Source: [Clostridium] clostridioforme AGR2157 (GTDB lineage: Bacteria > Bacillota > Clostridia > Lachnospirales > Lachnospiraceae). From it: DNA of 45,835 nt. Both the position numbers and the translations under genes were made by a program. The DNA lies in NCBI RefSeq assembly GCF_000424325.1, contig NZ_AUJR01000039.1, positions 1 through 45,835 on the forward strand, in the 5' to 3' direction. Numbering within the stretch: the stretch's first letter is position 1; each line of letters begins with the position of its first letter. Shown in pieces: positions 12,806-34,574 of this stretch. The notes beneath the pieces were generated by a model. It saw nothing but the letters and a program-made list of their open reading frames with translations. It did not search any database and was not told the origin of the DNA.

Positions 12806-13612
12806 CTATTTCCCGTTCTCTTCTGTTTCCTTTGCTTCCAATGCAAACTTCACCCGGTCACTGCCCAGCTTATAATAGGCGTCTGTCACCTCGATACCTA
12901 CTGCCTCATAGCCTTCCTCTACGGCTGCAAGGACAGTCGTTCCGGCTCCGGCAAAGGGATCTAAGATCCTGCCGCCCGGCTCACAGATCTGGATCACGTC
13001 TTTCATCAGCTGTAACGGTTTCTCTGTCACATGGATACGGTTTTGGGGATTTCCATAACGGAATACACCGGGAAGACAAGACACCGGACGGCTGATGGGC
13101 ATGGGGCCGTTGCTGCCCCACACAATATATTCAGCCTGCTGGCGGAAACGCCCTTTCTGCGGACGGGAGTTTCCCTTATCCCACACCGCAGTTCCTCTCC
13201 AGATCCAGCCTGCCCACTGGAGGGCATCTGTAATGGAGGGATACTGTCTCCAGTCAATAAACAAACAGATCGGCGCACCGACTTTGCAGGCTTTCCGCAC
13301 ATCGTAAAGCCACTCTGCCATCCAATGGGTCCAGGAACGCTGGTCCTTGTTATCCCCATCAAAATCCGGCAGGGCATTCTCCGCTTTCATACTGCTGTAC
13401 TTCTGATTGGTGGTACGGTTTCTTTCATTCTGCTTCGTTCCTCCGGACGCATAAGGCGGATCGGTGATCACTGCATCAAAAATTCCCGGCTGGAATGCTT
13501 TCACCAGTTTCAGCGTATCTCCATGCAGAATTGTCCACTTCTCCCCTCCGGTATATTCCTCCGGGTACGTTCCTTCTTTCAACAAGTTCCCTAATTGCAG
13601 GGTATTTTCCAT
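12806..13612 (-). CDS. DNA N4/N6 methyltransferase (beta class)
   Basis: A 268-residue SAM-dependent DNA methyltransferase. Motif IV, the catalytic loop, is ITDPPYASGG near residue 55, and the SAM-binding motif I comes later, as LDPFAGAGTTVLAA near residue 220. This order defines the beta class. Between them are a target-recognition stretch and the PLQLMKDVI helix seen in MboII/RsrI-like enzymes. No restriction enzyme is adjacent, so it is probably an orphan that protects or marks ICE DNA. ATG at 13612 was chosen for AAAGG spacing. SAM could come from the neighbouring metK. Confidence 0.88.
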   Translation of the reverse strand: MENTLQLGNLLKEGTYPEEYTGGEKWTILHGDTLKLVKAFQPGIFDAVITDPPYASGGTKQNERNRTTNQKYSSMKAENALPDFDGDNKDQRSWTHWMAEWLYDVRKACKVGAPICLFIDWRQYPSITDALQWAGWIWRGTAVWDKGNSRPQKGRFRQQAEYIVWGSNGPMPISRPVSCLPGVFRYGNPQNRIHVTEKPLQLMKDVIQICEPGGRILDPFAGAGTTVLAAVEEGYEAVGIEVTDAYYKLGSDRVKFALEAKETEENGK

Positions 13613-13630
13613 AGGCATCATCCTTTCTTA

Positions 13631-14440
13631 TCAGCGCTGTGGCTGTTTTTTACTTTTCTTTTTATTTTTCTGAATACATTCCAAAAGCTGCGATTTTCTT
13701 GCCTGCGATTTTTCATCTGATACACTCAATTCGGTTTCCACATATTCACTGATGATATGCAAAGCCTGATAATAATTACCGGACTGCATCACCCGTTTAT
13801 ACATTTCATTTGCCTGCTGATCCATCCCTTCTTTAATCAACAAACCTGCCGCAGCTCCTAAAATGATAAACACATTTCCATCTCTTCCTAAAAGCTCCAT
13901 CTTCGGTCTTTTCTTTTCCGGTTCTTGATTCTTCTGGATCTCCGGCTTGACCTGTTCAAAAAGATAGTCTTTCGGCTGCCAGAAATGGACGTAGAGTTCT
14001 CCACCATCGACCTGAATTTCCTGCTGTTCAAATCCTTCTCCCCAGCCATCACTGTACTGTCCGGTGAGATATTCACACAGTTCCGATAATTCTTCCGTTT
14101 CCAGATACTCCTTCAGTTCTAAGGTTGTACAGCCATATAACACACCATCCGATTCTTTCACCGATGGAACTGCAGACACTACCTTTTCTTTAATGGCAGC
14201 ACTTCCATCAAAGTAATCCATCAAATTATCAGTCTTATCATCGTCATGTCCGACACGGCTGTATTCTGTAATCTTTTCCTGAATCGCAGTGGCATACTCC
14301 GTTAAATCATCTCCTTCAAAAAACACCTGCTCTTCTTCAAAATCGTTATACCCCTCTTCTTCCCAATCCTGTTCCATCTCATTAGGAATAAAAGTTCCTG
14401 TCAGTGGTGTCAATAATTCTATTCTGATTCTATCTTCCAT
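13631..14440 (-). CDS. ICE protein of unknown function
   Basis: This 269-residue acidic protein has an N-terminal region with LLTPLTGTFIPNEMEQDW and a strongly acidic patch, a middle segment with GWGEGFEQQEI and LYVHFWQPKDY, and a C-terminal helical part GLLIKEGMDQQANEMYKRV followed by a lysine-rich end. I recall similar arrangements in Firmicutes ICEs but no function. The start has GAGGTGAGGTAA upstream. It lies between the Toprim protein and the methyltransferase in one operon. Confidence 0.6.
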   Translation of the reverse strand: MEDRIRIELLTPLTGTFIPNEMEQDWEEEGYNDFEEEQVFFEGDDLTEYATAIQEKITEYSRVGHDDDKTDNLMDYFDGSAAIKEKVVSAVPSVKESDGVLYGCTTLELKEYLETEELSELCEYLTGQYSDGWGEGFEQQEIQVDGGELYVHFWQPKDYLFEQVKPEIQKNQEPEKKRPKMELLGRDGNVFIILGAAAGLLIKEGMDQQANEMYKRVMQSGNYYQALHIISEYVETELSVSDEKSQARKSQLLECIQKNKKKSKKQPQR

Positions 14441-14445
14441 TTACC

Positions 14446-15417
14446 TCACCTCCCTCGTTCCCTTCGCTGTTTCCTCTGTTTTTCCCATGCCTGTTTTGCC
14501 AGGTCTCCATAGTCTGCACCTTCCATCTGTGGTAGGTTACAGACCACCGTATATGTTTCCCCATACTGCTCTTTTAACTGCGCACATGCCCATTGCCCGG
14601 CAAAATCGTTATCGGTGCAGATTTCAATTTCTGTCACCTCCGGATGCTCTTTTAGGAAATGTTCCAATGCATCCGGGCGCTTCATCTTCTTCGTTGATCG
14701 TTCCGCTCCTTCTTTTGGTGCTGCAATGCCCCCTAGAGACAGACGGTACTTATCGGTTCGTCCATCTTCCAGAGTCATATGGGCAAGGGCGTCAATGCAG
14801 GCTTCATATACTGCCACCCGACAGCTATTCCCAAGAGGTGGAACACAAAAGCTGTATTGCTTTTCACTGCCTTCCTGTTCCATCCGGAAGTTCTTTCCAC
14901 GGTTGTCATAGATTCCCCGTAAGAACGCATATTTTGCCTGCCCCTGCTCATCCGTTCCAACAAAAACAGCGTTATGGTATGGGGCGCTCTCATAAAGGAT
15001 TCCGATCTGCAGACAGTAATCCAACACATCATCCCGGATTCCCCGCTGGTTCAAATATCTCCGCACCCGGTAAAAGCTGTCATTGGGTGTTGGCAGAGAA
15101 AAAAGCTTCTTTTTGGGTGCTGGTTCTTCTCTTGAAACATACACTGTCGTCTGCTCACACAAGGCTTTCACTGCTTCTGTATATTCCATGCCATCTACCT
15201 GCATCAAAAACCGCAAGGCAGACATTCCACCAATATCCCTGGACTTCCAATGCCATTTACTGGTAATCTCATTGATTTTGAAACTGTCATGATCTTGAAG
15301 CTGCCATTCATTTCTTGTCCGTGTTTTTTTCAGTCTCCCCGGCTGATATGTCTGCAGATACTCATAGGCTCTCACCTGCTTGGCTACCTGATATTCTTCT
15401 TCGGTAACCCAAGCCAT
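14446..15417 (-). CDS. DUF3991/Toprim primase-like protein
   Basis: A 323-residue protein with an N-terminal DUF3991-type zinc-free primase-like part (residues 15-80, including FKINEITSKWHWKSRDIGG and ALRFLMQV) and a C-terminal Toprim domain: VAVYEACIDALAHMTL supplies the catalytic glutamate and EIEICTDNDFAGQWAC the DxD pair. Such proteins are thought to prime or process ICE DNA after transfer. Its ATG shares one base with the metK stop codon, so the two are translationally coupled. Confidence 0.8.
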   Translation of the reverse strand: MAWVTEEEYQVAKQVRAYEYLQTYQPGRLKKTRTRNEWQLQDHDSFKINEITSKWHWKSRDIGGMSALRFLMQVDGMEYTEAVKALCEQTTVYVSREEPAPKKKLFSLPTPNDSFYRVRRYLNQRGIRDDVLDYCLQIGILYESAPYHNAVFVGTDEQGQAKYAFLRGIYDNRGKNFRMEQEGSEKQYSFCVPPLGNSCRVAVYEACIDALAHMTLEDGRTDKYRLSLGGIAAPKEGAERSTKKMKRPDALEHFLKEHPEVTEIEICTDNDFAGQWACAQLKEQYGETYTVVCNLPQMEGADYGDLAKQAWEKQRKQRRERGR

Positions 15418-16577
15418 CAGATCACCGCATTGCGAAGAGCCTCTGCTTTATCGGTACGCTCCCACGGAAACTCTTTTCTCCCGAAATGCCCAAAGGCTGC
15501 AGTCTGTCGGAAAATCGGACGGGTAAGACGCAGCGTATCCACGATCTGCTTTGGAGTCAGCCCAAACACCAGAGGGATTGCCAGCTCCAGACAATCATCG
15601 GCACACACTTTTCCCGTACCAAACGTGTCCACCTGTACCATGACTGGCTGTGCCACTCCAATTGCATAAGCCAAAGACACCTGACACTTGCTGGCAAGCC
15701 CCGCAGCTACGATATTCTTAGCAATATATCTGGCCATATAAGATCCAGAACGATCCACCTTTGAACAATCTTTCCCGGAAAATGCACCGCCGCCATGAGG
15801 AACCATGCTCCCATAACTGTCTACCATCAGCTTCCTTCCAGTCAGTCCCGTATCCGCGTCTAATCCTCCACAGACAAAACGCCCCGATGGATTGATATAA
15901 ATCTTGGTTTCCTCATCCGGTGGCAGAGGACGAATAGCCGGCAGCAACACCTTTTTTCGGATCTCTGCCTCCAGCCTTTTCAAATCTTTTTCTTCCGTAT
16001 GCTGACAGGACACTACCACACTATCCAGTCGGACAGGTTTCCCGTTTTCATACTCTACGGTCACCTGGGCCTTGCCATCTGGTAGAATCCCTTGAATATA
16101 AGAGCTTTGTCGGCAGGCAGATAATTCCCGGACAATCCGGTTTGCCAACACTACAGGCATAGGCATGAGTTGTTTCGTTTCATCACAGGCATATCCAATC
16201 ATCACACCCTGATCTCCTGCCCCTTGGAACCAGTCCATCTGATTGTCAGACACTCCTTCCCTTCGTTCTTTTGAGGATGCGACTGCCCCTGCGATGTCGG
16301 GACTCTGTCGATGGACAAAGGTATCCATTTCAATTTCTTCACTAGAGTAACCCACATCCGACAATACTTTTCGCACTACTGCAAACACATCCGGTTCATA
16401 GGCACTGGTAATTTCCCCTGCCACAATGATCGTTCCCTTCGTGGCAAGCACTTCACAAGCAACTCTGGATTGTTCATCCTGTTTCAGACACACATCCAAG
16501 ATTGCATCTGCGATCTGGTCACACAATTTGTCCGGATGTCCTTCGGTTACTGCCTCTGCTGTATAAAATTTTCTCAT
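15417..16577 (-). CDS. metK: S-adenosylmethionine synthetase
   Basis: A 386-residue enzyme making SAM from methionine and ATP. Signatures are intact: TEGHPDKLCDQIADA, GAGDQGVMIGYA (usually GAGDQGIMFGYA) and HGGGAFSGKDCSKVDRSG (usually KDPTKVDRS). The small substitutions and the ICE location mark it as a cargo copy distinct from a housekeeping metK. The ATG at 16577 follows AGAGGAAATATAT; an upstream in-frame ATG at 16601 is less likely. It is coupled to the primase-like gene. Two DNA methyltransferases in the ICE use SAM, so supplying it is a reasonable inferred role. Confidence 0.93.
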   Translation of the reverse strand: MRKFYTAEAVTEGHPDKLCDQIADAILDVCLKQDEQSRVACEVLATKGTIIVAGEITSAYEPDVFAVVRKVLSDVGYSSEEIEMDTFVHRQSPDIAGAVASSKERREGVSDNQMDWFQGAGDQGVMIGYACDETKQLMPMPVVLANRIVRELSACRQSSYIQGILPDGKAQVTVEYENGKPVRLDSVVVSCQHTEEKDLKRLEAEIRKKVLLPAIRPLPPDEETKIYINPSGRFVCGGLDADTGLTGRKLMVDSYGSMVPHGGGAFSGKDCSKVDRSGSYMARYIAKNIVAAGLASKCQVSLAYAIGVAQPVMVQVDTFGTGKVCADDCLELAIPLVFGLTPKQIVDTLRLTRPIFRQTAAFGHFGRKEFPWERTDKAEALRNAVI

Positions 16578-16603
16578 ATATATTTCCTCTCTTTCATGCA
16601 AAA

Positions 16604-17077: not shown

Positions 17078-17902
17078 TTACTGACTCCAAAGAGTACTGG
17101 AGATATCCAGAGACTGGAAGAAAGTCCCCATTTTTACTGCCACAAGGATATTCCGGGCTTGCTTCCACTCATAAGAACAAGTCACCAGCGTCAGAGTTTC
17201 CTCACAACCTATGCCATCTACCCCTGTTTCAAACAGCGACAGCTCTTTTGCCTGCTGTACATAAGCCTCCAATTCCTGTGGACTCTGAAAAGATGTCCTC
17301 TGGAAGTCGAACATGGACACATCGACTTTCAAAACTGCCGCTATCCGGTACTCCTCCATCCCTTCCGGTGTCTGAAAGAACACCCTGGGATGTGCTTTCC
17401 AGTAATCATAGGAGGCGTACTGATCCAGATTCCCAAACATTGCCCCGCTGTTCATGTTGTGTCCGTAGATGGTCAGATTCCCGGATTCTCCCAGAATACA
17501 GTCTGCCTGGAGGAACAAACTTCCATTGATGTCGTAGCTTCCCCCGTAATCCCTCCGCAGATAATACTCCGGTTCTTCCGGGCTGCTCTGCAGTACCGGA
17601 TAATCGATGCCACTCTCTGGGATCGTAAGCCAACCCCGAACATCCGGATACTGACTCTGGAGGGAGCGGAGGTCAACGGCAGACACTTCCGGTTTTCTTC
17701 CAGCCTGTTCCTCTTTTTGTGTTGGAGAACCCCCGCCCGGAGGAAATTCCTCCGGGAAGTGGGATTTTAAGTCCTCCACCAGTTCCCGGTTCTGCCGGGG
17801 GATGATAACAAAGTCATAACAAAGCAACGCTACACTCATTATGCAGATGACACACAACATCACCTGCAACATCCACAGACTACTCTTCTTTTTTCGCTTC
17901 AT
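17078..17902 (-). CDS. srtB: Class B sortase
   Basis: A 274-residue membrane-anchored transpeptidase. One N-terminal helix (MLCVICIMSVALLCYDFV), a proline-rich linker, then the sortase domain: GWLTIPESGIDYPV, NLTIYGHNMNSG with the catalytic His, TLVTCSYEWKQAR with the catalytic Cys and Arg. The long insert before TLVTC is typical of class B. Its start lies 23 bases inside the end of the adhesin gene, so the two are coupled; the adhesin with its VPQTGD signal is the obvious substrate. Confidence 0.92.
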   Translation of the reverse strand: MKRKKKSSLWMLQVMLCVICIMSVALLCYDFVIIPRQNRELVEDLKSHFPEEFPPGGGSPTQKEEQAGRKPEVSAVDLRSLQSQYPDVRGWLTIPESGIDYPVLQSSPEEPEYYLRRDYGGSYDINGSLFLQADCILGESGNLTIYGHNMNSGAMFGNLDQYASYDYWKAHPRVFFQTPEGMEEYRIAAVLKVDVSMFDFQRTSFQSPQELEAYVQQAKELSLFETGVDGIGCEETLTLVTCSYEWKQARNILVAVKMGTFFQSLDISSTLWSQ

Positions 17903-20900
17903 CTGTTTTTTCTATTTTCCCATGTTTCTTCTTATAAATCAGAGTTGCTATAAGTCCGATTGCTGATGCTCCCAGAAGAGCAAACAGGAGGATTGGTTTC
18001 CAGCGGTTGTCTCCAGTCTGCGGCACACCCGGAGTTTCCGGTGTCCTTGCATCCTTCATTTCCACCTTCTGAACCTCCATGGTATCTTCCAATGTAAACT
18101 TCACATCTTCTGCAATCTCATACCCTTCCGGGGCTGTGATTTCACGCAGGATCAATTCTTCTCCTACCGGGAGCTTCTCTACCAGATGCGGTTTTCCTTC
18201 TGTTACCCACTCTTCCAGAATCTCACCATCTTTATTTAAGATCTGCAGTTTCGCTCCTTCCAGTTCTTCTCCTGTCGTGATATCTGTCTTGGAGATTTCC
18301 ACCTTGGAATAGGTATCTTTCATCTCTACTTTCGTTACACTTCCATCTTCTTTTACTTCAAACTCAATATCTTCTGCAGATACATAACCCTCTGCGTAAG
18401 GCGGCAGTTCTTCATGAAGAATGTAAGTTCCCTCTGACAAACCATACACTACATGGGGTTCTTTCGTACTGATCCACTCTTCCACAATGTTGCCATCCTT
18501 ATCGATGATCTGCAGTTTTGCTCCTTCCAGTTCTTCCCCAGTTGTAGCATCCGTTTTTGTAAACTGGCTCTCCGTTGGCTGGTTTTCCACCTCTTTGGTC
18601 AGCTGGATTTCAGCAAGGTTCTGGTCCTCGTAAGATGCATCGATTTCCCAGACTTCCTCATTTGGAAGATATCCTGGCTTTCTCACTTCCTCTTTTACAT
18701 AATATTTTCCATGATACAGGTCGCAGTCAAAGGTAAGCTGCCCGTTCTCATCCGTTGCTTTCTTCTCCAACAGCGTATCTTTTTCCACCAAGACTTCACC
18801 CTGCTGGGACAAGATATCCTCTCTTGCATACAGTCCGAAAATCACGCCTTCCAGTTTTTCTTCTGTAACTGCATCTTTTTTCTCTACAGAAATGGAAATC
18901 TTCTGTCTTTCATTTTTATAGGCAACGCCTTCATAAACCACAGCCTGCGTATCATCCTTTGCAGTCAGGGTAAATTCCTTCTGTTCCGGGTTCAATACGA
19001 AATGGTCGCCTGCCACCGTTTCTTTCAGATAATAAGAACCTAGTGGAAGATTGTTCACCACTGCTTTTCCTTCTTTATCTGTCACCAGGGTTGCTACCAG
19101 ATCATCTTTTTCATAGCGGATGACCGGATTGCCCTGTTCATCTTTCGCACCATCCGGAGAGTAAATGGTATCCTTGGCATACAATTCAAAAGTTGCCCCT
19201 TCCACACCGGATTCTTCATATACAAAGTCATGGAACACCCCAGTATCGGTATCCCCTCCGGTCACTGCATCTTTGATCTTTCCAGCCAATCTTTTTGCCT
19301 TTGCAAGCAGGGAATCTCCCTTCACCTCTACTGGCTGTTCCCCGGTTTTCGTTAATGTCAGGCTTCCCACCTGCTCATCGTTTGGCTGCTCGACTTCCAC
19401 AATGACTGCTCCGGTATCCGGATCGATCTGATGGGCAGTATCCGAAGAAACGGTAATCACGATTCCCTCTTTGGCATTTTCTTTGTAATTGCCTTTTTCG
19501 GTCACTTCTAGTGGAGAAATCACCGTTTGCCCTTCATACAAGGACATTTCATACCCCTGTCTTACAAATCCTTCCGGCGCTTTCACTTCTTCAATCCGAT
19601 AGGTAGAACATTTCACTTCTTCCGGTGTGACCAGATAGCCTTCCTCATTGGTCTTGAAAATGCTAATCGTTTCTTTCTTCGGATAGAATACCGTCTGCTC
19701 TACATATTCCTCTTTTTCCATATCAAAGATTTTATAGGAAGCGCCTGCTTTTAAAACCGGATTTCCTGTCTGTGCATCCTTTTTCACAATCTTTAATAAA
19801 AATTCAAACGGACGGTCATCGAACACACGCCACACCATCGGCTCTCTGCTGTCCTCGTCTACCTTCACCAAAAACGGATCGATGGCTTTCAAATTCTCCG
19901 GTACGGTGCTTTCCTCTACTACATAAAGACCATACGGAAGTTCCGGGCTAAGGGCATATCCCTTTTTATCGGTAAGAAGTTCCGGCACCGGGACAGCCTT
20001 GCCATCCACATAGGTCACTGCCACCTCTTCTTTGCTAAAATCATACCCACGGAAATCTTCCGCAGTAAACTGATCTCCATGGGATGGCTGTAGTTCCCCG
20101 CTCTTTACTTTCGACAGGTTGCTGACTAAATACACTTTAAATCCTGCACCTTCCACAAGCTCTGTTTCTGTCTGGTCTCCATCTTCGCTGATCTTGATGA
20201 GCTGGAACGCCTGTTTCTTCACCTGCTCCTGTACAGTCAGATCTCTGGTTACCTCTGCTACTTTCTGACTTTCATAGGTAAGGTCCACGTCATATTCTGT
20301 AGGATCTACCGTATAACCTTCCGGCGGAGTAATCTCTTTCACATACATTTTCCCCAGATACAGTTCAGAAAAATCTAAAGTGCCATCTTCCTTAATCACG
20401 CCCTGTGCGATGAGACTGTCTTTTTTAAACAACACACCCGTCTTTCCATCTGGGTGGACAATATCCTCTCTGGCATACAGACCATACACGGCTCCTGCAA
20501 GGGAGCTGTCTCCCTGTGGGAGAAAGTCCTGCGTCTCCTTATCAATCTTTCTGATATGGACAGCGCCTCGTACCCTCTCATCGGTTGCAGTGATTGTAAC
20601 CGTCTTTCCGGCTTCCACATCCACCTTATGGATCACATCACTCTGTGCATACTTGTCCGGAGCCTTGATTTCCTTCACATATACGGTTTTAATGGCTGCC
20701 TCAAAATAATCACTCACTGCCTTTCCCTCTTCCCCGGTGTCTGGCATTTCCATCAAAAGATGCTCACACTTGCTGTCTGTATAAATGCCATATACTGCAC
20801 CGTCTAAAGGATTCTTGGTATCCGCATCCTGTTTGAAAAGCTCGATCCTTGTCATCTCCAGCCAGTCTACCGTAAAACTTACCGGATTGGCTTTCTCCGA

Positions 20901-22265
20901 TTCAAAGACTCCAATGTCCTGATTGCTGTTTCCTGTGGATAATACCAGCGTTCTCCAGGTTTCCCCTACAGAGCCACGCAGCTCCCCGGAGGAATATTTT
21001 CCGGTATGAAGCATTGGGGCAGTCAGATAAAAGGTATCCCCGCCATAAATCTTCAGCGCACCATTCTCTGCGGAAGTTCCCTTTGTCTTGTTATAAATGG
21101 TAATGTCTTTTGGTACATTGACCGAAATGTAGTTTCGATGATCCCCGGACAATGTGATATCTGGTGTTTTCTGTACGTTTCCATTTCGGACTGCTTTTAC
21201 AGAAGTCTTGGAAAGGGAGATTTCCCCCTTCGGAGGTTCTTCCATGGCAAACAGGTGATCAATATAGGCGATCACGCCTGCGTTTACCAGATCTTCATAC
21301 TTACATCCTGTAAATCCCGCCTCACCTGCATAGGCATAGCTGGCTGCGATGTGGGTATATACATATTTCTCTTCTGCACTTTTCCCGGACAGATAACTGC
21401 CTGTAATATCCCCGGCGCCGCCATAACCATAATACAGCACCTTCTGCAAGTTCTTATTGCTGTCCAGTACCTGTGCCACATAGTCTCCACTGGGCGGTGA
21501 AGAACGATGGGATTCCAGACAGTAAGCAATCTTTCCATTGACCGTAAACCAGCAGGTTAAGTAATTTCCAATATAACTTGGATAGTAAATAGTCTCCCCT
21601 TTTTCCAGATGTACGGTTTCCCTTGCTCGGAAAGTGTTTTCCGCACCGGAAAGCATCATCACTTCCCCATCCTCAATCTTTTCTTCCAATTCCCTTGCTG
21701 CCTGTGCATCTTCCCCGGATACCGTCACTTCCACATCCGGGATCTCCTGCACAGGCGTCTCCGAATCTTCTTCGGAATTCGTATCCTCCTTCTGTTTCTG
21801 ACCGCCATTTTCTTCTGTATGCGCCTGCCCTTCCGTATCCGTCAGGATGATCTTTCTGCTCACAGAATAGCTGTCACGCGCATCCTTTGGCACAACCCAG
21901 TAGGTTGCAATATAAGTGCCTGCCTGGTCAGGGTGGTAGCTCCCTCCATCTTCCGCTTCGATACGTTCCAAGGTAACATCCTCTTGTTCTGAATTGTAAT
22001 GGATGCCTTCCATACAAGTCTCTGCCATAAAATCCTTGTCGGAAATGTCTTTCGTGATATCTTCTGCTGTTACCATATGTTTCGCAGCTTCTGAAACTTT
22101 CTCTGTCTGTTCCGTTTCAGATATTTCTGCGTTCTCCGTCACTAGCTCTGACGGATTTTTTGTTTCTGCCGCATGGACATCCGCTAAGTTCCCAAGCGGA
22201 CTAAGACCCATGAGCAGTGCAAGCCCGAAGGCTACAAGTCTTGTTTTGATATTCCTGCTCTTCAT
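17880..22265 (-). CDS. Thioester/SpaA-domain cell-surface adhesin
   Basis: A 1461-residue wall-anchored protein. A signal peptide of about 32 residues ends VHAAE. A low-complexity acidic linker leads to a thioester-type domain near residues 220-340 with YYPSYIGNYLTCWF and KIAYCLESHRSS, the cysteine probably forming the bond used to attach to host or partner cells. Seven or more SpaA/Cna-B-like beta domains follow, each starting with an (I/E)KxD-type strand; the last two share TGEELEGAKLQI. The sorting signal is VPQTGDNRW, then a hydrophobic helix and KKKHGKIEK. It likely promotes mating-pair contact or gut adhesion; that role is inferred. Confidence 0.9.
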   Translation of the reverse strand: MKSRNIKTRLVAFGLALLMGLSPLGNLADVHAAETKNPSELVTENAEISETEQTEKVSEAAKHMVTAEDITKDISDKDFMAETCMEGIHYNSEQEDVTLERIEAEDGGSYHPDQAGTYIATYWVVPKDARDSYSVSRKIILTDTEGQAHTEENGGQKQKEDTNSEEDSETPVQEIPDVEVTVSGEDAQAARELEEKIEDGEVMMLSGAENTFRARETVHLEKGETIYYPSYIGNYLTCWFTVNGKIAYCLESHRSSPPSGDYVAQVLDSNKNLQKVLYYGYGGAGDITGSYLSGKSAEEKYVYTHIAASYAYAGEAGFTGCKYEDLVNAGVIAYIDHLFAMEEPPKGEISLSKTSVKAVRNGNVQKTPDITLSGDHRNYISVNVPKDITIYNKTKGTSAENGALKIYGGDTFYLTAPMLHTGKYSSGELRGSVGETWRTLVLSTGNSNQDIGVFESEKANPVSFTVDWLEMTRIELFKQDADTKNPLDGAVYGIYTDSKCEHLLMEMPDTGEEGKAVSDYFEAAIKTVYVKEIKAPDKYAQSDVIHKVDVEAGKTVTITATDERVRGAVHIRKIDKETQDFLPQGDSSLAGAVYGLYAREDIVHPDGKTGVLFKKDSLIAQGVIKEDGTLDFSELYLGKMYVKEITPPEGYTVDPTEYDVDLTYESQKVAEVTRDLTVQEQVKKQAFQLIKISEDGDQTETELVEGAGFKVYLVSNLSKVKSGELQPSHGDQFTAEDFRGYDFSKEEVAVTYVDGKAVPVPELLTDKKGYALSPELPYGLYVVEESTVPENLKAIDPFLVKVDEDSREPMVWRVFDDRPFEFLLKIVKKDAQTGNPVLKAGASYKIFDMEKEEYVEQTVFYPKKETISIFKTNEEGYLVTPEEVKCSTYRIEEVKAPEGFVRQGYEMSLYEGQTVISPLEVTEKGNYKENAKEGIVITVSSDTAHQIDPDTGAVIVEVEQPNDEQVGSLTLTKTGEQPVEVKGDSLLAKAKRLAGKIKDAVTGGDTDTGVFHDFVYEESGVEGATFELYAKDTIYSPDGAKDEQGNPVIRYEKDDLVATLVTDKEGKAVVNNLPLGSYYLKETVAGDHFVLNPEQKEFTLTAKDDTQAVVYEGVAYKNERQKISISVEKKDAVTEEKLEGVIFGLYAREDILSQQGEVLVEKDTLLEKKATDENGQLTFDCDLYHGKYYVKEEVRKPGYLPNEEVWEIDASYEDQNLAEIQLTKEVENQPTESQFTKTDATTGEELEGAKLQIIDKDGNIVEEWISTKEPHVVYGLSEGTYILHEELPPYAEGYVSAEDIEFEVKEDGSVTKVEMKDTYSKVEISKTDITTGEELEGAKLQILNKDGEILEEWVTEGKPHLVEKLPVGEELILREITAPEGYEIAEDVKFTLEDTMEVQKVEMKDARTPETPGVPQTGDNRWKPILLFALLGASAIGLIATLIYKKKHGKIEKTDEAKKEE

Positions 22266-22320: not shown

Positions 22321-22818
22321 TTATCTGCTGACTTCTGTTTTCTTGTGACTGGGTTTCTCTCTGCCTACTTCCTGTCTTGTACGCTTTAGCGCATCGGTTA
22401 TAGATCGGCTGGAAATCCCATTCTGATGGCAGCCTTCCACGATCCCCATAAAATAAAGATCCGAGGGGATGGCAGGCTGATCCTTATAGGGGGCATTCAT
22501 GGTATATGCCATGACTTCCCGCTTCACACCATCCTTTCCCTGAACAAGAACAGGCTCCTTCCCATACAGATGGGGATATCCTTCATAAAAGTCCAGGCTT
22601 TTTTCACACTCCGGTGTGATCTTCCAAAGCACCCCTTCCACTTGGCTGCCCTCTTCCGGCAAAATGGTGGCAACACCGCTTCCCTTCCCTCTGCCACAAA
22701 AGGTCAGGCGGTATCCATCCAGCCAGACATTCTCCACTACGGAAGCTGCCGGACAGCGGTAGGCCATCTGGTCTAAGTTCATGTTACTGCCATAGGCAAA
22801 ATAATATGTTTCTTTCAT
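22321..22818 (-). CDS. Gamma-glutamylcyclotransferase-like protein (AIG2 family)
   Basis: A 165-residue protein with the family's glycine loop YYFAYGSNMNLDQM at the N-terminus and the catalytic glutamate in LDFYEGYPHLYGKE near residue 80. These enzymes cleave gamma-glutamyl amides by cyclising the glutamate. It follows the amidoligase gene by nine bases. Amidoligase-cyclotransferase pairs were described by comparative genomics (Iyer and colleagues) as making and breaking isopeptide or gamma-glutamyl bonds. The C-terminal 40 residues are basic. The substrate here is unknown. Confidence 0.85.
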   Translation of the reverse strand: MKETYYFAYGSNMNLDQMAYRCPAASVVENVWLDGYRLTFCGRGKGSGVATILPEEGSQVEGVLWKITPECEKSLDFYEGYPHLYGKEPVLVQGKDGVKREVMAYTMNAPYKDQPAIPSDLYFMGIVEGCHQNGISSRSITDALKRTRQEVGREKPSHKKTEVSR

Positions 22819-22827
22819 CTCTACCTC

Positions 22828-23787
22828 CTATCGGACATCCTCTGCCCGATGATTTCTATTCAAACATTCATACTGACTGCGGTCATATCTCCACGCCCGA
22901 TCCCCTTCCAGGTTGGCAAGCAGATGTTCCCGGACATTTTTATATTCCGGTCCGATAAGCCCCAACCGCAGTAAAAAGGTACGGAATGTAAACGCAGGAT
23001 TCTCGGTAATCTCTGTTTTCCGCATCTGGGTACATTTCTGATTGATGGCCTGAGCGGAAATGGCAAGAGCCAGCGTGATATTTGCCCGTACTTTTCCTGC
23101 ATGGAGAGTGCTTTCAAAACACCGCCATTCCAGCGTTCCCTTCGAAAACACCGCATGAAGATTTAAGGCATAATATCGGCTACTGTCATAATGATTATGA
23201 CTTCCATCCCTGCCTCCATACCAGATCTGTTTCAGTTTTTCCATGGAAATGGTGTTGTTTGGCATTCTGCGGATTTTTTCTAACACAATTGGACGCACTT
23301 TCTGACAATAGTTGCTTTCTCTGGAAGTCTGCACTTTCAATGCCTTAAACAGAATATCCTCTTTGGAATACATGATAGTCATAGCATTTTTGAGGCTTCT
23401 TGGGGTGTGGTTGGAAGCGTCCACATGAACATGCTGCCCGCAGGACTCATTTACCTTTGCCCCATGGTGTCTCAAACACCTCACTACTTCCTGCAGCTTC
23501 CCCATCTCTCTATAGGAAAGTTTGGGACTGACCATTTCGGTACTGTATTCACTTCCGGCACGAACCATGCGTCCACGCTCCCTGCGTTCCGTATAGATAC
23601 TGCCATCATACATAAACTTCCACTTCTTCCCTTCCTGATCTGTCACAGACCAGACGCCATAATACCCACCATCACAAACTGCCCGTGTTCCAAACATCTC
23701 CGCGACTACCTCCGCAGCCCTCTGCCTGGTAATGCCTGTCATCTCAATCTCTGTGCCGAAATACTGATCCTGAATTCCAATTGCCAT
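22828..23787 (-). CDS. Putative amidoligase
   Basis: A 319-residue protein of the COOH-NH2 ligase (glutamine-synthetase-like) family. The metal/ATP-binding GTEIEMTG is near residues 11-18, an arginine-rich strand RERGRMVRAGSEYSTEMVSP follows, CGQHVHVDAS is near residue 115, and KGTLEWRCFEST supplies the later Glu and Arg. All core residues look intact. It lies between the C5 methyltransferase and the cyclotransferase, in one operon. Expected activity is ATP-dependent amide bond formation on a peptide or protein; the target is not evident. Confidence 0.85.
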   Translation of the reverse strand: MAIGIQDQYFGTEIEMTGITRQRAAEVVAEMFGTRAVCDGGYYGVWSVTDQEGKKWKFMYDGSIYTERRERGRMVRAGSEYSTEMVSPKLSYREMGKLQEVVRCLRHHGAKVNESCGQHVHVDASNHTPRSLKNAMTIMYSKEDILFKALKVQTSRESNYCQKVRPIVLEKIRRMPNNTISMEKLKQIWYGGRDGSHNHYDSSRYYALNLHAVFSKGTLEWRCFESTLHAGKVRANITLALAISAQAINQKCTQMRKTEITENPAFTFRTFLLRLGLIGPEYKNVREHLLANLEGDRAWRYDRSQYECLNRNHRAEDVR

Positions 23788-23793
23788 ACTGCC

Positions 23794-25083
23794 TTACCTC
23801 TTTGTCTTTTCATCCTCTGCCCGGATTTCTTCATCTGCCTGCCGAAGAAGCGTTCCGATGGCTTCGATCACGTTGACGGTCACTCCATTTCCGGCCTGTT
23901 TATAAAGCTGGCTGTCCGAAGTATCCTGTTCTATGCGGTCAATCTGCCAGTCATAAAAACCCTGCAGCCGCAGACACTCCCTCGGCACCAGCCTCCGGAT
24001 TCTGCCCCGATAGGCAACTCCATGCCGGTCTGTGGCAGTAATGGTGAACATCGGCTCTTCCGGCTCCTTCATCCTCCGGCCATTCTGCCGGGTTTCTTCC
24101 CTTCCCGGAGTCAGCACTGCCCTGGCACCTTCCTCTTTTAAGACACCGGAGCATTCCCCTTTATGATTATGGATGCCGGACTGTCTGGTATTCAGACACC
24201 TGCACTGCTCTGTGACAAGAGGCGGCACAGACAGATCCACAAAATGAAGCGTTCCCTGCTGGATTCCTGTGGTAAGGGTATGGGCAATCTGATGCCCCAC
24301 ACGCCCTCTTCTGGTATTCATGCCTGCATATCCTAAGTCAATGCTATCTCCCGGATACGCCATCTTATATCCCTGCTTGGTATTCTCCTTGATGGGAACA
24401 CCCATCTCATACAATCCAGTTTTTCCACCCATACCGCCTGCCAGCGATGTCAAAGTACAGCTTAATCCTTCCGGACTGTACACTCTTTTCCCTTGGCTGC
24501 CTGTTCGGATTTGTATAAGAGACGTTCCATTTGCTGCTGGGAAAGGTAATATTTTTCCGGCACATCTTCGATCAAGATATCCGACAAGATACACCCGTTT
24601 TCTGGATTGGGGGACTCCAAAATCCTTGCTGTTAAGCACTTTCCATTCCACACCGTACCCCAGCTCAGATAACGTACTGAGGATGGTGTGAAACGTCCTG
24701 CCTTTGTCATGCGAAAGCAGTCCGGGAACATTTTCAAGGATGAAATACGCAGGTCGCTTGTCTGCAACCAGTCTGGCAATCTCAAAGAACAGAGTTCCTC
24801 TGGCATCTGCAAATCCTCCCCTCTTTCCGGCGATAGAGAATGCCTGGCAAGGAAATCCTGCACACAAAAGATCAAAGTCTGGCATTCGTTCAATTTCGAT
24901 TGTTCTTGCGTCATTGCAAAACCACTCCCCTTCTGTGTCGAACAGCAATCGGTAGTTCTTATCCGCATAAGCATCCACCTCGCAGTGTCCCACACAGGTA
25001 AAACCGCCTGCACGTCTTAACCCTTCCCGGAATCCCCCGATCCCGCTGAATAAATCAAAAAATCGAATGGTTGCGGCTATCAA
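23794..25083 (-). CDS. dcm: DNA C5-cytosine methyltransferase
   Basis: About 429 residues. All main motifs are visible: I FFDLFSGIGGFREG, IV AGFPCQAFSIAG with the catalytic Cys, VI FILENVPGLLSH, VIII VPQSRKRVYLVG, a variable target-recognition region, and X YKQAGNGVTVNV. An upstream ATG at 25113 lies inside a terminator hairpin and before the AAAGGAGG at 25084-25091, so the true start must be after it. Only TTG (25083), ATA or ATT (25068) are available, which is unusual. It is followed six bases later by the amidoligase. No partner endonuclease is seen. Confidence 0.9.
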   Translation of the reverse strand: MIAATIRFFDLFSGIGGFREGLRRAGGFTCVGHCEVDAYADKNYRLLFDTEGEWFCNDARTIEIERMPDFDLLCAGFPCQAFSIAGKRGGFADARGTLFFEIARLVADKRPAYFILENVPGLLSHDKGRTFHTILSTLSELGYGVEWKVLNSKDFGVPQSRKRVYLVGYLDRRCAGKILPFPAANGTSLIQIRTGSQGKRVYSPEGLSCTLTSLAGGMGGKTGLYEMGVPIKENTKQGYKMAYPGDSIDLGYAGMNTRRGRVGHQIAHTLTTGIQQGTLHFVDLSVPPLVTEQCRCLNTRQSGIHNHKGECSGVLKEEGARAVLTPGREETRQNGRRMKEPEEPMFTITATDRHGVAYRGRIRRLVPRECLRLQGFYDWQIDRIEQDTSDSQLYKQAGNGVTVNVIEAIGTLLRQADEEIRAEDEKTKR

Positions 25084-25097
25084 CCTCCTTTGCTGAG

Positions 25098-25136
25098 AAA
25101 AAGCAGGCGGCATGGTTTCTTTTCCACACCGCCTGC
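25098..25136 (-). terminator. Rho-independent terminator
   Basis: Minus strand GCAGGCGGTGTGG pairs with CCATGCCGCCTGC (8 perfect outer pairs) and is followed by TTTTTC. It ends the acidic-protein transcript and overlaps the spurious upstream ATG of the methyltransferase gene. Confidence 0.8.
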
Positions 25137-28069: not shown

Positions 28070-28306
28070 ATGCAAAAAATCAGACCAGATATGGATATCG
28101 GTAAAAATATACAATCCATCCGTTATGCGAATAAACTGACCCAGGATCAGGTCATTGCAAAATTGAACCTGATGGGAATTTCCATGTCCAAAAGTACCTA
28201 TGCCAAGCTGGAAACCAACCGCATGAACATCAAGGTATCGGAACTTGTTGCCCTTGCTAAAATCTTCCACACCGATATCAATGCGTTCTTTTCCGGACTT
28301 CTCTAA
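28070..28306 (+). CDS. XRE-family helix-turn-helix regulator
   Basis: A 78-residue DNA-binding protein: DIGKNIQSIRYANKLTQDQVIAKLN forms helices 1-2, and GISMSKSTYAKLETNRMNIKVSEL the recognition helix and the rest of a Cro/C1-type domain. There is no extra effector domain. It is divergent from the ICE operon with two direct repeats between them, the arrangement of an ICE repressor. AGAATGAAAGG precedes the ATG. It ends four bases into the convergent gene at 28303. Confidence 0.88.
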   Translation: MQKIRPDMDIGKNIQSIRYANKLTQDQVIAKLNLMGISMSKSTYAKLETNRMNIKVSELVALAKIFHTDINAFFSGLL

Positions 28307-29115
28307 TTCTTAAAATCAATTTTTTTATCATCATTTAGTAAATGAATAATATATTTTCCACGCAATTCAATAAGAAACTTTATTCGTTTATCCATTTCTA
28401 AAATACTTTCTTTATTCTCAAACAACTTATTGAATGATATCAACGTATCGGTTTTTTCAATTTTTTCCCTATCTAACTCATGAATTAGTTCTTCCCAATT
28501 CCTTCCCTCAATATATAGTTTATATACTTTATCAAATATCCTAGTAAAATATATTTGTTGACAAGTATAGGTCATATATTCTCTAAAAGACATTAGCTTA
28601 TCTATTTCCGTGGGAAACTCTTTCCAATTATCTTGTAAAAATTTTAAAAACCAAGGCCATAGTTCATTTAAATCTTTATGAATATGCTGTAAATTAGGGC
28701 CATAATTTTTTGAAACTATTGTCTTAGGTACTGGAGCCATATTGCCAATTGTATGATATATTTTTTCAAATCCCAGTTTACCATAAGCATAAAGCTGTGC
28801 TTGCTCATGAGGTTGACAACTTTTAGGGTTATGCATAATATCAAACAAAAAGTCTTTTTTTATATTTTTATCTTCAATACTAATTGCTCTTCCGCCTTCC
28901 ACCATTTCTATATTTGTGAATTTAATTATTTTTCCAAATAATCTAATAAATATTAGTTGTGAAAGAACTGACTGTTCACAATCTACCATTGAATATTCTG
29001 AATCAAAACTATACTTCCAAGCGTTTTCGCTTTTCAAATATTCAGAGCATCCTTTTTCCCATGCTATCATTTCCTTTTTGCTTCTAGCATATTTTTTATG
29101 CTTGCAGTAACACAT
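28303..29115 (-). CDS. AT-rich cargo protein of unknown function
   Basis: A 270-residue soluble protein beginning MCYCKHKKYARSKKEM, a C-x-C start resembling a degenerate SEC-C zinc motif, with FRLFGKIIKFTN-like strands and a long helical, charged C-terminus. I recognise no catalytic motif. GGAG lies nine bases before the ATG. Base composition is far more AT-rich than the ICE backbone, as in its neighbours up to 34.4 kb, pointing to a separately acquired island. It is downstream of the HNH-like gene on the same strand and may work with it. Confidence 0.6.
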   Translation of the reverse strand: MCYCKHKKYARSKKEMIAWEKGCSEYLKSENAWKYSFDSEYSMVDCEQSVLSQLIFIRLFGKIIKFTNIEMVEGGRAISIEDKNIKKDFLFDIMHNPKSCQPHEQAQLYAYGKLGFEKIYHTIGNMAPVPKTIVSKNYGPNLQHIHKDLNELWPWFLKFLQDNWKEFPTEIDKLMSFREYMTYTCQQIYFTRIFDKVYKLYIEGRNWEELIHELDREKIEKTDTLISFNKLFENKESILEMDKRIKFLIELRGKYIIHLLNDDKKIDFKN

Positions 29116-29155
29116 ATATTATTATCTCCATTCGCTTTTAATTCATATTAAAATA

Positions 29156-30265
29156 TTATTTTCCTGAAGATTTCTTCTGCAATAATTGTTGAACAGAATA
29201 TTCTTCTGATAATATTGAAGGTAGATTCTGTTTCCAATTTTGATTTTCAAAATCCGCTAAATTCATAGTAAAATTTCCCATTTTAACAGCTGTATCTTCA
29301 ATACTACACACACCTCTAATATTTTCATCCATCAAAACGTCCTTTATTAAAGGTGAGAAAAAGTAATTTGATGCTTTGTATCTAATCAGCAAATAAAATA
29401 TTTCCCTTAGTTTTTCTTCTTCGCTTAATTTTTGGAATTGCTTAGCATATTTTTTCATTAGTCGATCACCTGTTTTATAAAAAACAGTAATTACTGATTT
29501 CTTTTTCAATGGGAAAATACATATCAACAAATCTTCCAGTGTTTTATGATTTAATACATTCACATTTTGCAACTTCGTAAAATCAACATTATGCGATATA
29601 GGTATTGAAACCTGTGCAGCAATGGGCACCGTATAATCTAAAATATTATGATAAATAATTTTATAATTTCCATATCCGTTCTCAAAACTTCTTTTAGCAA
29701 AATCTAAATTTTCTTGAAAATCTCTTATATCAACTTCAACGGTTGGTTCCTCTGTATTCCCAATACTATCAAAAAAAGAAACTATTATCTGATCATCTGT
29801 TAACTCTGAATGATTTAAAGTATTTTTGAAACTTCTCAATCTTGAATTAAAAAGTTCATTCAAGTATATTTTTAGCGCCAAAGAATCCACTATCTCTTCC
29901 GGTTTCATAGTTAATAGTGCTTTTTCACTTTCATAAATATTAAACTTTTCTTGATCACATTTTGAACATATTGAATAAAATACACCTGCTTTATTCGTTC
30001 CGACATATTCTTTATCAGAGAAAGGGGTCCTTAAACCTATATATTCCGCTTTCAAAACATTATAATTTTTTTTATAAAGTCCCTTTATATTTTCAAGACA
30101 AAAAAATGGCACTGTATGTGATTTATGAAAAGATCTAGATTGATTCTTTAATTCCTTTCCACATAAGGCACAGCTTATTTGATCTCGCTGATTATTAAAT
30201 CTTTGATTGATCTTTGATTTAACAATGCTTATTTCTTTATTATTTGGTATTCTAACTTCGTTCAT
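29156..30265 (-). CDS. HNH-endonuclease-like cargo protein
   Basis: A 369-residue protein. Residues 30-120 carry CALCGKELKNQSRSFHKSHTVP and, further on, YSICSKCDQEKFN: two Cys pairs around a His-containing loop, the layout of HNH nucleases, where the HKSHTVP part matches the His-x-x-x-Pro segment. The remaining 250 residues are an uncharacterised helical/beta region. ATG at 30265 has GAGGG five bases upstream. It has its own promoter (30300-30328) and is divergent from the PRTase/DprA pair. It could be a defence effector; unproven. Confidence 0.6.
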   Translation of the reverse strand: MNEVRIPNNKEISIVKSKINQRFNNQRDQISCALCGKELKNQSRSFHKSHTVPFFCLENIKGLYKKNYNVLKAEYIGLRTPFSDKEYVGTNKAGVFYSICSKCDQEKFNIYESEKALLTMKPEEIVDSLALKIYLNELFNSRLRSFKNTLNHSELTDDQIIVSFFDSIGNTEEPTVEVDIRDFQENLDFAKRSFENGYGNYKIIYHNILDYTVPIAAQVSIPISHNVDFTKLQNVNVLNHKTLEDLLICIFPLKKKSVITVFYKTGDRLMKKYAKQFQKLSEEEKLREIFYLLIRYKASNYFFSPLIKDVLMDENIRGVCSIEDTAVKMGNFTMNLADFENQNWKQNLPSILSEEYSVQQLLQKKSSGK

Positions 30266-30393: not shown

Positions 30394-30423
30394 TTGCCAT
30401 TTTCAAATCCCATTGTTTATGAT
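30394..30423 (+). promoter_or_regulatory. Candidate promoter of the PRTase/DprA pair
   Basis: -35 TTGCCA (30394-30399), 18-base spacer, -10 TATGAT (30418-30423), then GGAGG before the ATG at 30460. Other AT-rich choices exist nearby. Confidence 0.45.
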
Positions 30424-30459
30424 AATATAAAATTACTTATTATTGCTCGGAGGAACACT

Positions 30460-31668
30460 ATGGAAAAGATACTGTTTTGTAATCTCGATTTATTAAAAAA
30501 AACTTTTGACGGAAATGATAATGCAGCTCTTCATAGAACACGTAATCAATTTTTAAATTATGCAAATGATTTATCTTCAGACGAGGAAAATCATATCTAT
30601 TTTATTAGCCGTGACCAGAAATTACTCGATTCTGCTAAAGAATACTTTTCTCCTCAAAAAGGATATCCAAATTTCAAGTTCCGGTTACGTGAAAAGGCGC
30701 GTGACTTCGTCATGCAAAATCGTCATCATAATAATTTATTTGTATTTATAGGCGGTAAAGAAGTAGACTTTCACATGGCTGTACATACACGCTCACTTTT
30801 TATTGTTCCTACATGGATACCCGTAGAAGAAAAAGCTGAATTTTACGGTGTACATGTTGATACCCCAGAACAACTTTTCAAATTTATACGCGCACTAAAT
30901 AACCACGAAAACTGGTATGCACAAGTAGAAATAGAACCAAATGTGACTGCTTTGTCACTAATGGATGGTAGATATAAATATAAAGCAAAGACAGAAAATG
31001 AACGTGACATGGTAGAGCATTTTGAACAATTATTAAAATTTGGTCAAAGTAGAAATTACTACGATATCCTCTTGTACCATTTTCTTGCGGGAATGACGAA
31101 TAGTAAATTATTTGATGATATTGAATTATTTGGAATGATACCTTCCTCTGATTGCTCTTTAAATAAAGATATCTTTAGTTTTATGCGTCAAACAAGAATT
31201 ATAAAAGGAAAACATATTCCTCGCAAACTAACATACGGCGAAAACTTATTATTAAGAAAAAATCCAAAACAGAAGGCCCACTTATCATATTCGACTGAGC
31301 AACGTGTTATAATGGGCGCTGTAGAAGAATTCAAAACTCTATGTATCAATCCTGATTTCAAAAATAAAATCAATACTTTACGGAAATCAGGAAAATTTAA
31401 TGTTTGTATATTCGATGACTATATGACACATGGAAACTCTTTTAACGCCGTCCGAAATTTACTGAAACAGTTAGGGGCTAATAAAATCATCTTTGTTTCT
31501 TTAGGAAACTTCGGAAAACCTTTTCAAAAAAAAGATTATGCAATTAACGGAGATGTCTATAATGTTGGTTATACTTACAATATGACTAATTCCAGTATTA
31601 AATCTCTTAATTATAATGATACGGCTAAAGACGAAGTGTCAGAATTATATGAAATTTTTAATTCATAA
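30460..31668 (+). CDS. HAD-like/phosphoribosyltransferase fusion protein
   Basis: A 402-residue protein. The N-terminal half looks like a HAD-type Rossmann domain: KILFCNLDLL, IYFISRDQKLLDSAKEYF and NLFVFIGGKEVDFHMA. The C-terminal half holds a type I phosphoribosyltransferase loop, VCIFDDYMTHGNSFNAV near residue 325, the PRPP-binding DDxxTxGxS. The ATG at 30460 has GGAGG seven bases upstream; an in-frame extension lacks a site. It is 28 bases before a DprA/Smf gene. HAD and PRTase enzymes occur together in stress operons (for example those described with Ter proteins), where they are predicted to make nucleotide-like molecules. Confidence 0.7.
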   Translation: MEKILFCNLDLLKKTFDGNDNAALHRTRNQFLNYANDLSSDEENHIYFISRDQKLLDSAKEYFSPQKGYPNFKFRLREKARDFVMQNRHHNNLFVFIGGKEVDFHMAVHTRSLFIVPTWIPVEEKAEFYGVHVDTPEQLFKFIRALNNHENWYAQVEIEPNVTALSLMDGRYKYKAKTENERDMVEHFEQLLKFGQSRNYYDILLYHFLAGMTNSKLFDDIELFGMIPSSDCSLNKDIFSFMRQTRIIKGKHIPRKLTYGENLLLRKNPKQKAHLSYSTEQRVIMGAVEEFKTLCINPDFKNKINTLRKSGKFNVCIFDDYMTHGNSFNAVRNLLKQLGANKIIFVSLGNFGKPFQKKDYAINGDVYNVGYTYNMTNSSIKSLNYNDTAKDEVSELYEIFNS

Positions 31669-31696
31669 TATTATATTAGAATAGGAAGTATTAACT

Positions 31697-32857
31697 GTGG
31701 AAAAATATTATATTGCTCTATATAAATTAGGTATTAAAAATGAATTACTTCTAAAAGCAATAACTGAATATGACTCTGATTTTATAATCCATTTATTTGA
31801 GGGGAATACCGATATTTTTCTTACTAATATAGAATGGTTAGAATACAAAAATATCTTTGAAGATCATTCTTCCCTTCTTAATGCATTAGAAGCAGCCGAA
31901 ACTATTTTACAAATTAATAAGCAAAATGAAATCCATACTGCCTTATATGCAACAATTAATTATCCTCATAATCTTATGAGCATGGATAATCCTCCTGCTA
32001 TTGTATATTATAAGGGTGCAAATCCTAATAGAAATTTCGAAAAGGCTATCGCTTGCATTGGAACAAGAAAACCTACCCGGTTTGGCTTTAATGCTATTAA
32101 TTATTTAATACCTCAATGGGTAAATGAAGGATTTGCAATTATATCTGGTTTAGCTGCTGGAGTTGATCGACTAGCACATATATCTTGTTTAACTGAGGGA
32201 GGCAAAACAATTGCTGTTCTTGCCCATGGTCTAGATATGATTTATCCTGCCTCTAATAGAAAATTGGCTGAAAAAATATTGCTATGTAATGGAACATTAC
32301 TTTCTGAATACCCTGTTGGGACAAAACCTGATAAGTTTAGATTCATCAATAGAAATCGTCTCATTGTAGGACTTTCCAAAGTAACTGTGGCAATGGAATG
32401 CGAAAGAAAAAGCGGATCTATGCATACAATTGAGTTCGCCCAAAAGCAAAATTGTCCTATTTTCTGTCCCGATCCTGGAGACACTCCAAAAGAAACTCAA
32501 TCAGGATTAAAATATATATTAGACAATAACATTGGATCTCTAATAAAAAATGGATTAGATTACCAAAATGTTGTTATTTCTGCTGGATATAATATTGAAC
32601 AACCTTCAATGAATGCTAAATATATAAAAGAACAATATTTGAAATCATTAATTGCTAGTATAGAGGACGATTTCATAATCAAATCTATTTTTGAAAAAAT
32701 AGGTTTAAATTATACTTCCGATTGTTCTTGTCTAATTAATTTAAATAACTATTTATTGGATTTCATTCAAAATACCGGTTACCCTATCCAAACAATAATT
32801 GATTTATTTATAGAAAGCATCATTTCAACATATACACCAAGCGAGAAAGAGAGCTAA
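31697..32857 (+). CDS. DprA/Smf-family protein
   Basis: A 386-residue protein with a complete DprA Rossmann domain: IACIGTRKPTRFGF, IISGLAAGVDRLAHISCL, GGKTIAVLAHGLDMIYP, SEYPVGTKPDKFRFINRNRLIVGLS and ECERKSGSMHT. DprA loads RecA on single-stranded DNA in competence, and the Smf/LOG fold can bind nucleotides. Here it sits in an AT-rich ICE island paired with the PRTase protein, not in a competence locus, so a defence or nucleotide-sensing role is more likely. The C-terminal 100 residues are not the usual winged-helix domain that I can recognise. Start GTG at 31697 (AGGAAG upstream). Confidence 0.88.
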   Translation: MEKYYIALYKLGIKNELLLKAITEYDSDFIIHLFEGNTDIFLTNIEWLEYKNIFEDHSSLLNALEAAETILQINKQNEIHTALYATINYPHNLMSMDNPPAIVYYKGANPNRNFEKAIACIGTRKPTRFGFNAINYLIPQWVNEGFAIISGLAAGVDRLAHISCLTEGGKTIAVLAHGLDMIYPASNRKLAEKILLCNGTLLSEYPVGTKPDKFRFINRNRLIVGLSKVTVAMECERKSGSMHTIEFAQKQNCPIFCPDPGDTPKETQSGLKYILDNNIGSLIKNGLDYQNVVISAGYNIEQPSMNAKYIKEQYLKSLIASIEDDFIIKSIFEKIGLNYTSDCSCLINLNNYLLDFIQNTGYPIQTIIDLFIESIISTYTPSEKES

Positions 32858-32872
32858 CGCCCTCTCTTTCTC
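32843..32872 (+). terminator. Hairpin terminator after the DprA-like gene
   Basis: GAGAAAGAGAG and CTCTCTTTCTC form a perfect 11-bp stem with an 8-base loop that contains the stop codon. There is no clear U tract, so efficiency is uncertain. Confidence 0.55.
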
Positions 32873-34445: not shown

Positions 34446-34574
34446 TTACTCTATACACCTTATACCCACCCCATAATAGGGGGTTAATATTCCCACCAAT
34501 ACCAACACCAGCTCAATCACCCCCACTCCCTGTTCATCCTTACAGAACTCCCTTAATTCCTTTCCTAACTCCAT
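34446..34574 (-). pseudogene. flp: Flp pilin gene cut by ICE insertion
   Basis: A 42-codon frame starts at 34574 after GGAGGAGAGCG. Residues 1-27 are a normal Flp prepilin start, MELGKELREFC then KDEQG-VGVIELVLVLV, where cleavage after QG leaves the conserved Glu at +5. After that the sequence becomes GILTPYYGVGIRCIE and stops, unlike any Flp tail. The tad genes on the right are in place, so the rest of flp and any TadE/TadF genes should lie at the other end of the ICE. Confidence 0.8.
34475..34500. other. Probable ICE-chromosome junction
   Basis: The Flp frame is lost at about 34490-34495 (minus strand GTATTGGTGG then GAATATTAACC). This is the best estimate of the right attachment site. The exact core cannot be fixed without the other end. 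Confidence 0.6.

Follow-up and report, generated by a model that had tools for sequence, protein, structure and literature searches.

A gene pair probably representing a divergent ShosTA system on an integrated conjugative-type element of a probable Lachnospiraceae

The gene pair and its flanking signals

Two open reading frames separated by 28 bases are located on the forward strand of the window, i.e. the whole stretch of 45,835 nucleotides that was analysed. The first (30460-31668) encodes 402 amino acids counted from the ATG at 30460, with a frame that is already open from 30394, and the second (31697-32857) encodes 386 amino acids and begins with GTG. The first gene was designated shosT on the basis of PADLOC, a profile match to PDB chains and the PRPP loop of its product, a putative toxin with a degenerate HAD-like N-terminal region and a C-terminal phosphoribosyltransferase (PRTase). 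PADLOC, a PDB profile match and a tree led to the designation shosA for the second gene; its product is a putative DprA-like antitoxin with a C-terminal region of its own (residues 290-386, approximately). Both reading frames and the spacing agreed with the original prediction of a two-gene module. This prediction also described the pair as AT-rich relative to the backbone of the element, which was confirmed by the GC content per kilobase of 0.28-0.32 over the AT-rich stretch at 28-34 kb that includes both genes, versus mostly 0.43-0.54 elsewhere in the window (0.39 and 0.40 in two further kilobases).

A candidate promoter, TTGCCA-18-TATGAT, agreeing with the consensus at 10 of 12 positions, was found on the forward strand at 30394-30423, and a likely ribosome-binding site (GGAGGA, 30449-30454, same strand) precedes the ATG at 30460. 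The sequence TTTATGATAA is also present upstream of shosT in three closely related loci (L002, L003 and L004). The proposed promoter of the pair is well placed, but the region as a whole contained no excess of promoter-like sites (24 found versus 20.8 expected from shuffled sequences, standard deviation 4.6). At the other end of the pair, a hairpin spans the stop codon of shosA (32843-32872, forward strand). It is stable, with a z of -4.06 and none of 200 shuffles equally stable, and similar inverted repeats were seen by eye 3' of shosA in L003 and L004. All three hairpins lack a T-run, and the terminator scan made no call at the hairpin of the window. Hence, the predicted hairpin exists and is a possible 3' end signal, but lacking a T-run it does not qualify as a standard intrinsic terminator.

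The host element

The window encodes a relaxase, a MobC/NikA-like protein, a TraG-type coupling protein, an ArdC-like protein and a plasmid-type actin. The element is of conjugative type and may be conjugative or only mobilizable. The original prediction was right insofar as the pair is accessory cargo of a mobile element.

A Tad pilus locus and amylase/branching-enzyme genes are located at the right side of the window. Three genomes of the same genus (G779, G786 and G781) begin to match the window at 34493-34495, inside a pilin-like ORF of the Tad locus, and the right end of the element was placed there; one short match of G776 starts 6 bases earlier. The small Flp/TadE-like pilin ORF is uninterrupted in G779 and G786, and its other half was detected on contig C20 of the window's own genome (L070, at about 784). 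The element is inserted into this pilin ORF. From the junction mapping it follows that the gene pair is cargo lying about 1.6 kb inside the right end. The inner ends of the element show a short inverted similarity by eye (TTAGCCCCCTAT versus TTAACCCCCTAT).

Near the left junction, contig C20 carries a protein kinase gene with a further C-terminal part (L070: 1086-2639), which directly follows the left boundary of the element, and three tyrosine recombinases in a row with a DUF6262 protein (L070: 3219-8282). Such a set is an arrangement of Tn554-type transposons; here it is accompanied by relaxase and coupling-protein genes.

Several further genes of the window were recorded. A group II intron-type reverse transcriptase/maturase with an HNH domain is encoded on the reverse strand (1876-3759) near the coupling-protein gene. 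An S-adenosylmethionine synthetase and DNA methylases of the N6/N4 and the C5-cytosine type are borne by the element at 12809-16601 and 23797-25113. A sortase adjoins a surface protein of 1461 amino acids with a thioester domain and eight SpaA stretches (17081-22265), and within the element an amidoligase adjoins a gamma-glutamyl cyclotransferase-like (AIG2) gene (22324-23787).

Assignment to ShosTA and distribution of the pair

For both proteins a search of a defence database, which had been suggested with the original prediction, was carried out. PADLOC named the first protein ShosT (6.7e-42) and the second ShosA (2.3e-79). Thus, the immunity-type module that had been supposed, then without a name, corresponds to a described system. 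The PADLOC ShosT model (PDLC03962) also finds matches, most of them in short frames, in 394 of the 397 family genomes sampled and in 13 of 14 controls, so lone matches of this model are unfit as proof of ShosT. The score of the window protein was 142 bits versus 69.5 bits for the best match listed outside the window pair and its relative in G138. The ShosA model is loose, too: the canonical DprA of the same genome reached 187.5 bits, versus 264.8 bits for the window protein. The PsyrA model matches the second protein as well (2.6e-19), and both results count against the assignment.

Profiles built from the window proteins and their relatives were compared with the PDB. The ShosT profile matched the solved ShosT chains 8zvb, 8zvc, 8zvd, 9w2p and 9w2q (1.1e-15), with one stretch of similarity in the N-terminal region and another in the PRTase. 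Solved ShosA (9vzo and 8zva, the latter recorded under the title DNA processing protein DprA) was matched by the ShosA profile at 3.9e-47. Searches with single sequences were less favourable to this identity: window ShosT matched PDB ShosT weakly with phmmer (3.4e-06), and the best PDB match of window ShosA was the canonical DprA 3uqz (1.1e-29), with ShosA at 1.6e-27. The low identity to ShosT of P2, 29 of 154 aligned residues in the N-terminal region and 29 of 138 in the PRTase region, likewise counts against it. The PADLOC match of ShosT being insufficient by itself, the case for ShosTA is made by three results together: the difference in score, the profile match to PDB chains and the pairing of the genes.

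The crystallised pair is that of the P2-like phage P2_4C9 (LR595883; L071), with the P2 ShosTA chains 8zvb, 8zva, 9vzo, 9w2p and 9w2q: its ShosT is identical to 8zvb over 424 residues and its ShosA to 9vzo from residue 23. Like the window pair it combines a HAD-like and PRTase toxin with an adjacent DprA-like antitoxin; the DD-x-x-T-x-G loop is present and the HAD nucleophile is lost in both. In contrast, the gene for ShosA comes first in P2_4C9, ShosT is only 19% identical, and window ShosA has an additional C-terminal region. The Pseudomonas filamentous (Pf) phage PfAC02a (OR790968; L072) possesses both genes in the order of the window, ShosT then ShosA. They are annotated as 'HAD family hydrolase/phosphoribosyltransferase (ShosT)' and 'DprA (ShosA)', an architecture which is the same as in the window, but in its ShosT the aspartates of both HAD motifs, I and IV, are retained, and zinc ribbons are present at the C-terminus.

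RqlHI and PsyrTA (SyrTA) are similar insofar as a PRTase toxin domain is held by a DprA-like partner, as described in PMC4670107; in these systems, unlike in the window, PRTase and RecQ-like helicase form a fusion protein. The window protein of 402 amino acids gave no match to a helicase family, and an identity with RqlHI/PsyrTA was rejected for this reason. With ComF the window protein shares a PRTase region; it reached 17.6 bits against a cut-off of 233.55 bits and has an additional N-terminal region.

The co-occurrence of both genes in other genomes was checked, too. A DprA gene was found beside ShosT in all 15 other loci that were opened (L002-L007, L038-L041, L044, L046, L047, L071 and L072; L045 is a duplicate of L006), so the lack of conserved pairing that would have spoken against a module was not observed. 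L071 and L072 are not independent for this count, since they were found through ShosA. The two genes are directly adjacent in 14 of the 15 loci. In L002 the DprA gene is cut by the contig end, and in L005 the DprA gene and ShosT are separated by a second PRTase gene. Both gene orders occur. Locus L005 (3471-7206, Porcincola intestinalis) encodes a DprA with an N-terminal HTH_17, the second PRTase with a zinc ribbon and a weak match to PsyrT, and then ShosT. In a Lacrimispora prophage (L006: 5998-7202, by its translations the same as L045: 3001-4205) the ShosT frame is split in two and ShosA is open, as expected if loss of the toxin is tolerated.

The pair is rare among relatives of the host. 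It was detected in two of 397 sampled genomes of the family, the window's own included, and in one of 391 sampled genomes of the class, which was the window's own, at E 1e-20. Five loci were obtained in a pattern scan that covered a single genome of each species and is limited to close relatives. Relatives of ShosT were found in 13 of 72,556 plasmid records, four of which were opened for pairing, and in four viral contigs. The two window proteins are matched, over the greater part of their length, by families of phage proteins (phrog_27844 and phrog_30500). Among 50,697 phage records no match was obtained with window ShosT at 1e-5 or with L047 ShosT at 0.01.

By homology, the window pair is inferred to function as a ShosTA toxin-antitoxin and anti-phage module carried as cargo by the integrated conjugative-type element; we consider this reading to be correct with a probability of about 85%. 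As such it is a divergent member of an already described system, and the finding is sound and largely ordinary. ShosTA is thereby extended to an integrated conjugative-type element of a probable Lachnospiraceae, with relatives on plasmids and viral contigs.

Domain features and possible function

The PRPP loop of window ShosT reads F-D-D-Y-M-T-H-G-N (residues 318-326) and shares the DD-x-x-T-x-G pattern with solved ShosT. D319, D320, T323 and G325 are kept in all 12 rows of the ShosT alignment and are also invariant in an alignment of 10 rows. The 12-row alignment omits L002, L004 and likewise L005, as near copies or a different locus, all three of which are included in the 10-row alignment; the split ShosT of L006 was left outside all ShosT alignments, its ShosA being used. 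Pfam hardly detected the PRTase of the window protein (0.17, below the cut-off).

For the HAD-like region Pfam gave no HAD match in window ShosT up to E 1. In the alignment this region corresponds to the HAD domain of ShosT from the Pf phage, in which Pfam HAD_2 was detected at 3.9e-23; ShosT of P2 gave 0.00029 with a HAD family, below the cut-off. In HAD enzymes motif I holds the nucleophile and motif IV the acids. The window protein has N-L-D in place of D-x-D as motif I and G-G-K-x-x-D in place of G-D-x-x-x-D as motif IV, so that N8 and G99 occupy the positions of the two aspartates. Of the 12 ShosT rows, 11 lack both catalytic aspartates, including the window and solved P2, and the Pf phage protein is the single row with both. 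Because both residues are missing, the HAD-like domain is probably no working HAD phosphatase. Of the predicted combination of HAD-like and PRTase domains, the PRTase was thus supported by its loop, and the HAD part stood by alignment only, without a Pfam match and without the catalytic aspartates. Furthermore, ShosT is reported to act as a pyrophosphatase, and a HAD nucleophile is an unlikely source of this activity, since the solved P2 ShosT lacks it as well; this is a testable point which arises from the alignment.

ShosA of the window is a DprA/Smf protein (PF02481, 5e-58) in which the Rossmann core of DprA is kept. The predicted lack of a recognisable winged helix was confirmed: no Pfam match to DprA_WH (PF17782) was detected up to E 1, and hhalign of the C-terminal region against eight canonical winged helices gave no significant similarity, with a probability of 1.6% (P 0.032, 31 columns) versus 98.6% for the winged-helix control. 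Seven of nine ShosA rows entered this comparison; L002, cut by the contig end, and the shorter L047 were left out. The C-terminal region comprises about 95 residues and is common to L003, L004, L006, L007, L044 and L046. It differs from that of solved ShosA, and other ShosA rows have little or nothing at the position of the canonical winged helix or of this region.

In a tree of 24 DprA-type proteins, 15 ShosA rows including the window were separated from eight canonical rows with a branch support of 99/96. However, the rows of P2 and L041 ShosA are long and that of PfAC02a is weakly placed, which counts against the grouping. The DprA encoded in L005, the locus with three genes, clusters with the canonical proteins. 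Thus, window ShosA shares the Rossmann domain with canonical DprA but lacks the winged helix and is placed outside the canonical group.

The C-terminal region of ShosA which is specific to a clade, and the division of ShosT into HAD-intact and HAD-degenerate forms, are mildly new. We tentatively propose a ShosTA clade defined by this region and by a catalytically dead HAD-like domain in ShosT. The latter might be structural or ligand-sensing, the ShosA region might set the trigger or hold the toxin, and a HAD-active type (Pf phage) and a HAD-dead type (P2 and the window clade) might differ in their chemistry. This proposal is possible but doubtful.

Toxicity, antitoxin action, trigger and the route via purines and DNA damage are taken from published work on ShosTA. 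In PMC9122126 a DprA and PRTase pair of the P2 hotspot was reported to protect against T7 and lambda, and DprA homologues were described as antitoxins in shosTA, syrTA and rqlHI. According to PMC12593503, ShosT acts both as a phosphoribosyl transferase and as a pyrophosphatase; purine metabolism is disturbed, and the result is DNA duplication, filamentation and cell death. ShosA is described there as a DNA-binding protein that probably stimulates recombination, and T7 Gp0.7 as a trigger (with reference to Pu et al. 2025, Nat Commun 16:3141). PMC10732053 lists ShosTA among the systems activated by phage single-stranded-DNA-binding protein. For RqlHI, PMC4670107 states that one mutation in the PRPP pocket removes most of the toxicity.

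In the window we observed the gene pair, its homology to solved ShosTA, an intact PRPP loop, the conserved pairing and the mobile context. If the pair acts as published for ShosTA, ShosT would bind PRPP via its PRTase domain, and unrestrained toxin would disturb the purine nucleotide pool, resulting in DNA damage and growth arrest or death. In the uninfected cell the DprA-like, DNA-binding ShosA would hold ShosT in check. When a phage disturbs replication or transcription, ShosA would release the toxin or fail to offset it, and the infection would be abortive.

Alternatively, the pair could serve for addiction only, stabilising the mobile element with no anti-phage role in its host. It is located on an integrated mobile element and has homologues on plasmids, and shosTA, syrTA and rqlHI are toxin-antitoxin systems with DprA-like antitoxins according to PMC9122126 and PMC4670107. 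In addition, PMC12409345 reports no detectable protection by PsyrTA in one native E. coli strain, which also counts against a role in defence. Nevertheless, we regard mere addiction as rather unlikely: the P2-hotspot pair protects against phages (PMC9122126), and viral contigs as well as phage protein families repeatedly contain homologues. Addiction and defence are, moreover, not mutually exclusive.

The original prediction suggested that the two proteins could make and sense a nucleotide signal during phage or plasmid entry. In such a system, comparable to Thoeris, the PRTase/HAD enzyme would be the producer and a SLOG-type DprA the sensor. An SMF/DprA-LOG (SLOG) domain does occur in Thoeris ThsA, which is activated by cyclic ADP-ribose isomers (PMC11204291), and the PRPP loop of ShosT is intact. 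However, the HAD catalytic aspartates are missing, and PMC12593503 describes ShosTA as a toxin and a DNA-binding antitoxin. The nucleotide-signal system was rejected for these reasons and is very unlikely. A housekeeping or competence role, in which a second DprA and a salvage PRTase would serve DNA uptake, is consistent with the family-level homology to DprA and weakly to ComF, but it is most improbable and was rejected as well, given the scattered occurrence of the pair, rare in the family and within a mobile element, the tree, and the separate canonical DprA on contig C10 with its winged helix (DprA_WH, 6.5e-13); as originally predicted, no competence genes were seen among the window genes scanned, a subset of the ORFs.

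Apart from the ShosTA pair, two genes are located on the reverse strand at 28306-30265, divergent from shosT (28306-29115 and 29159-30265). Neither belongs significantly to a Pfam, PADLOC or PHROG family. The product of 29159-30265 contains CxxC and histidine motifs that are by eye reminiscent of HNH proteins, and it is perhaps a second defence gene. Its distant relatives were found on plasmids of Paraclostridium, Niallia and Lactococcus (12 records) and in two of 299 family genomes, the window's own included.
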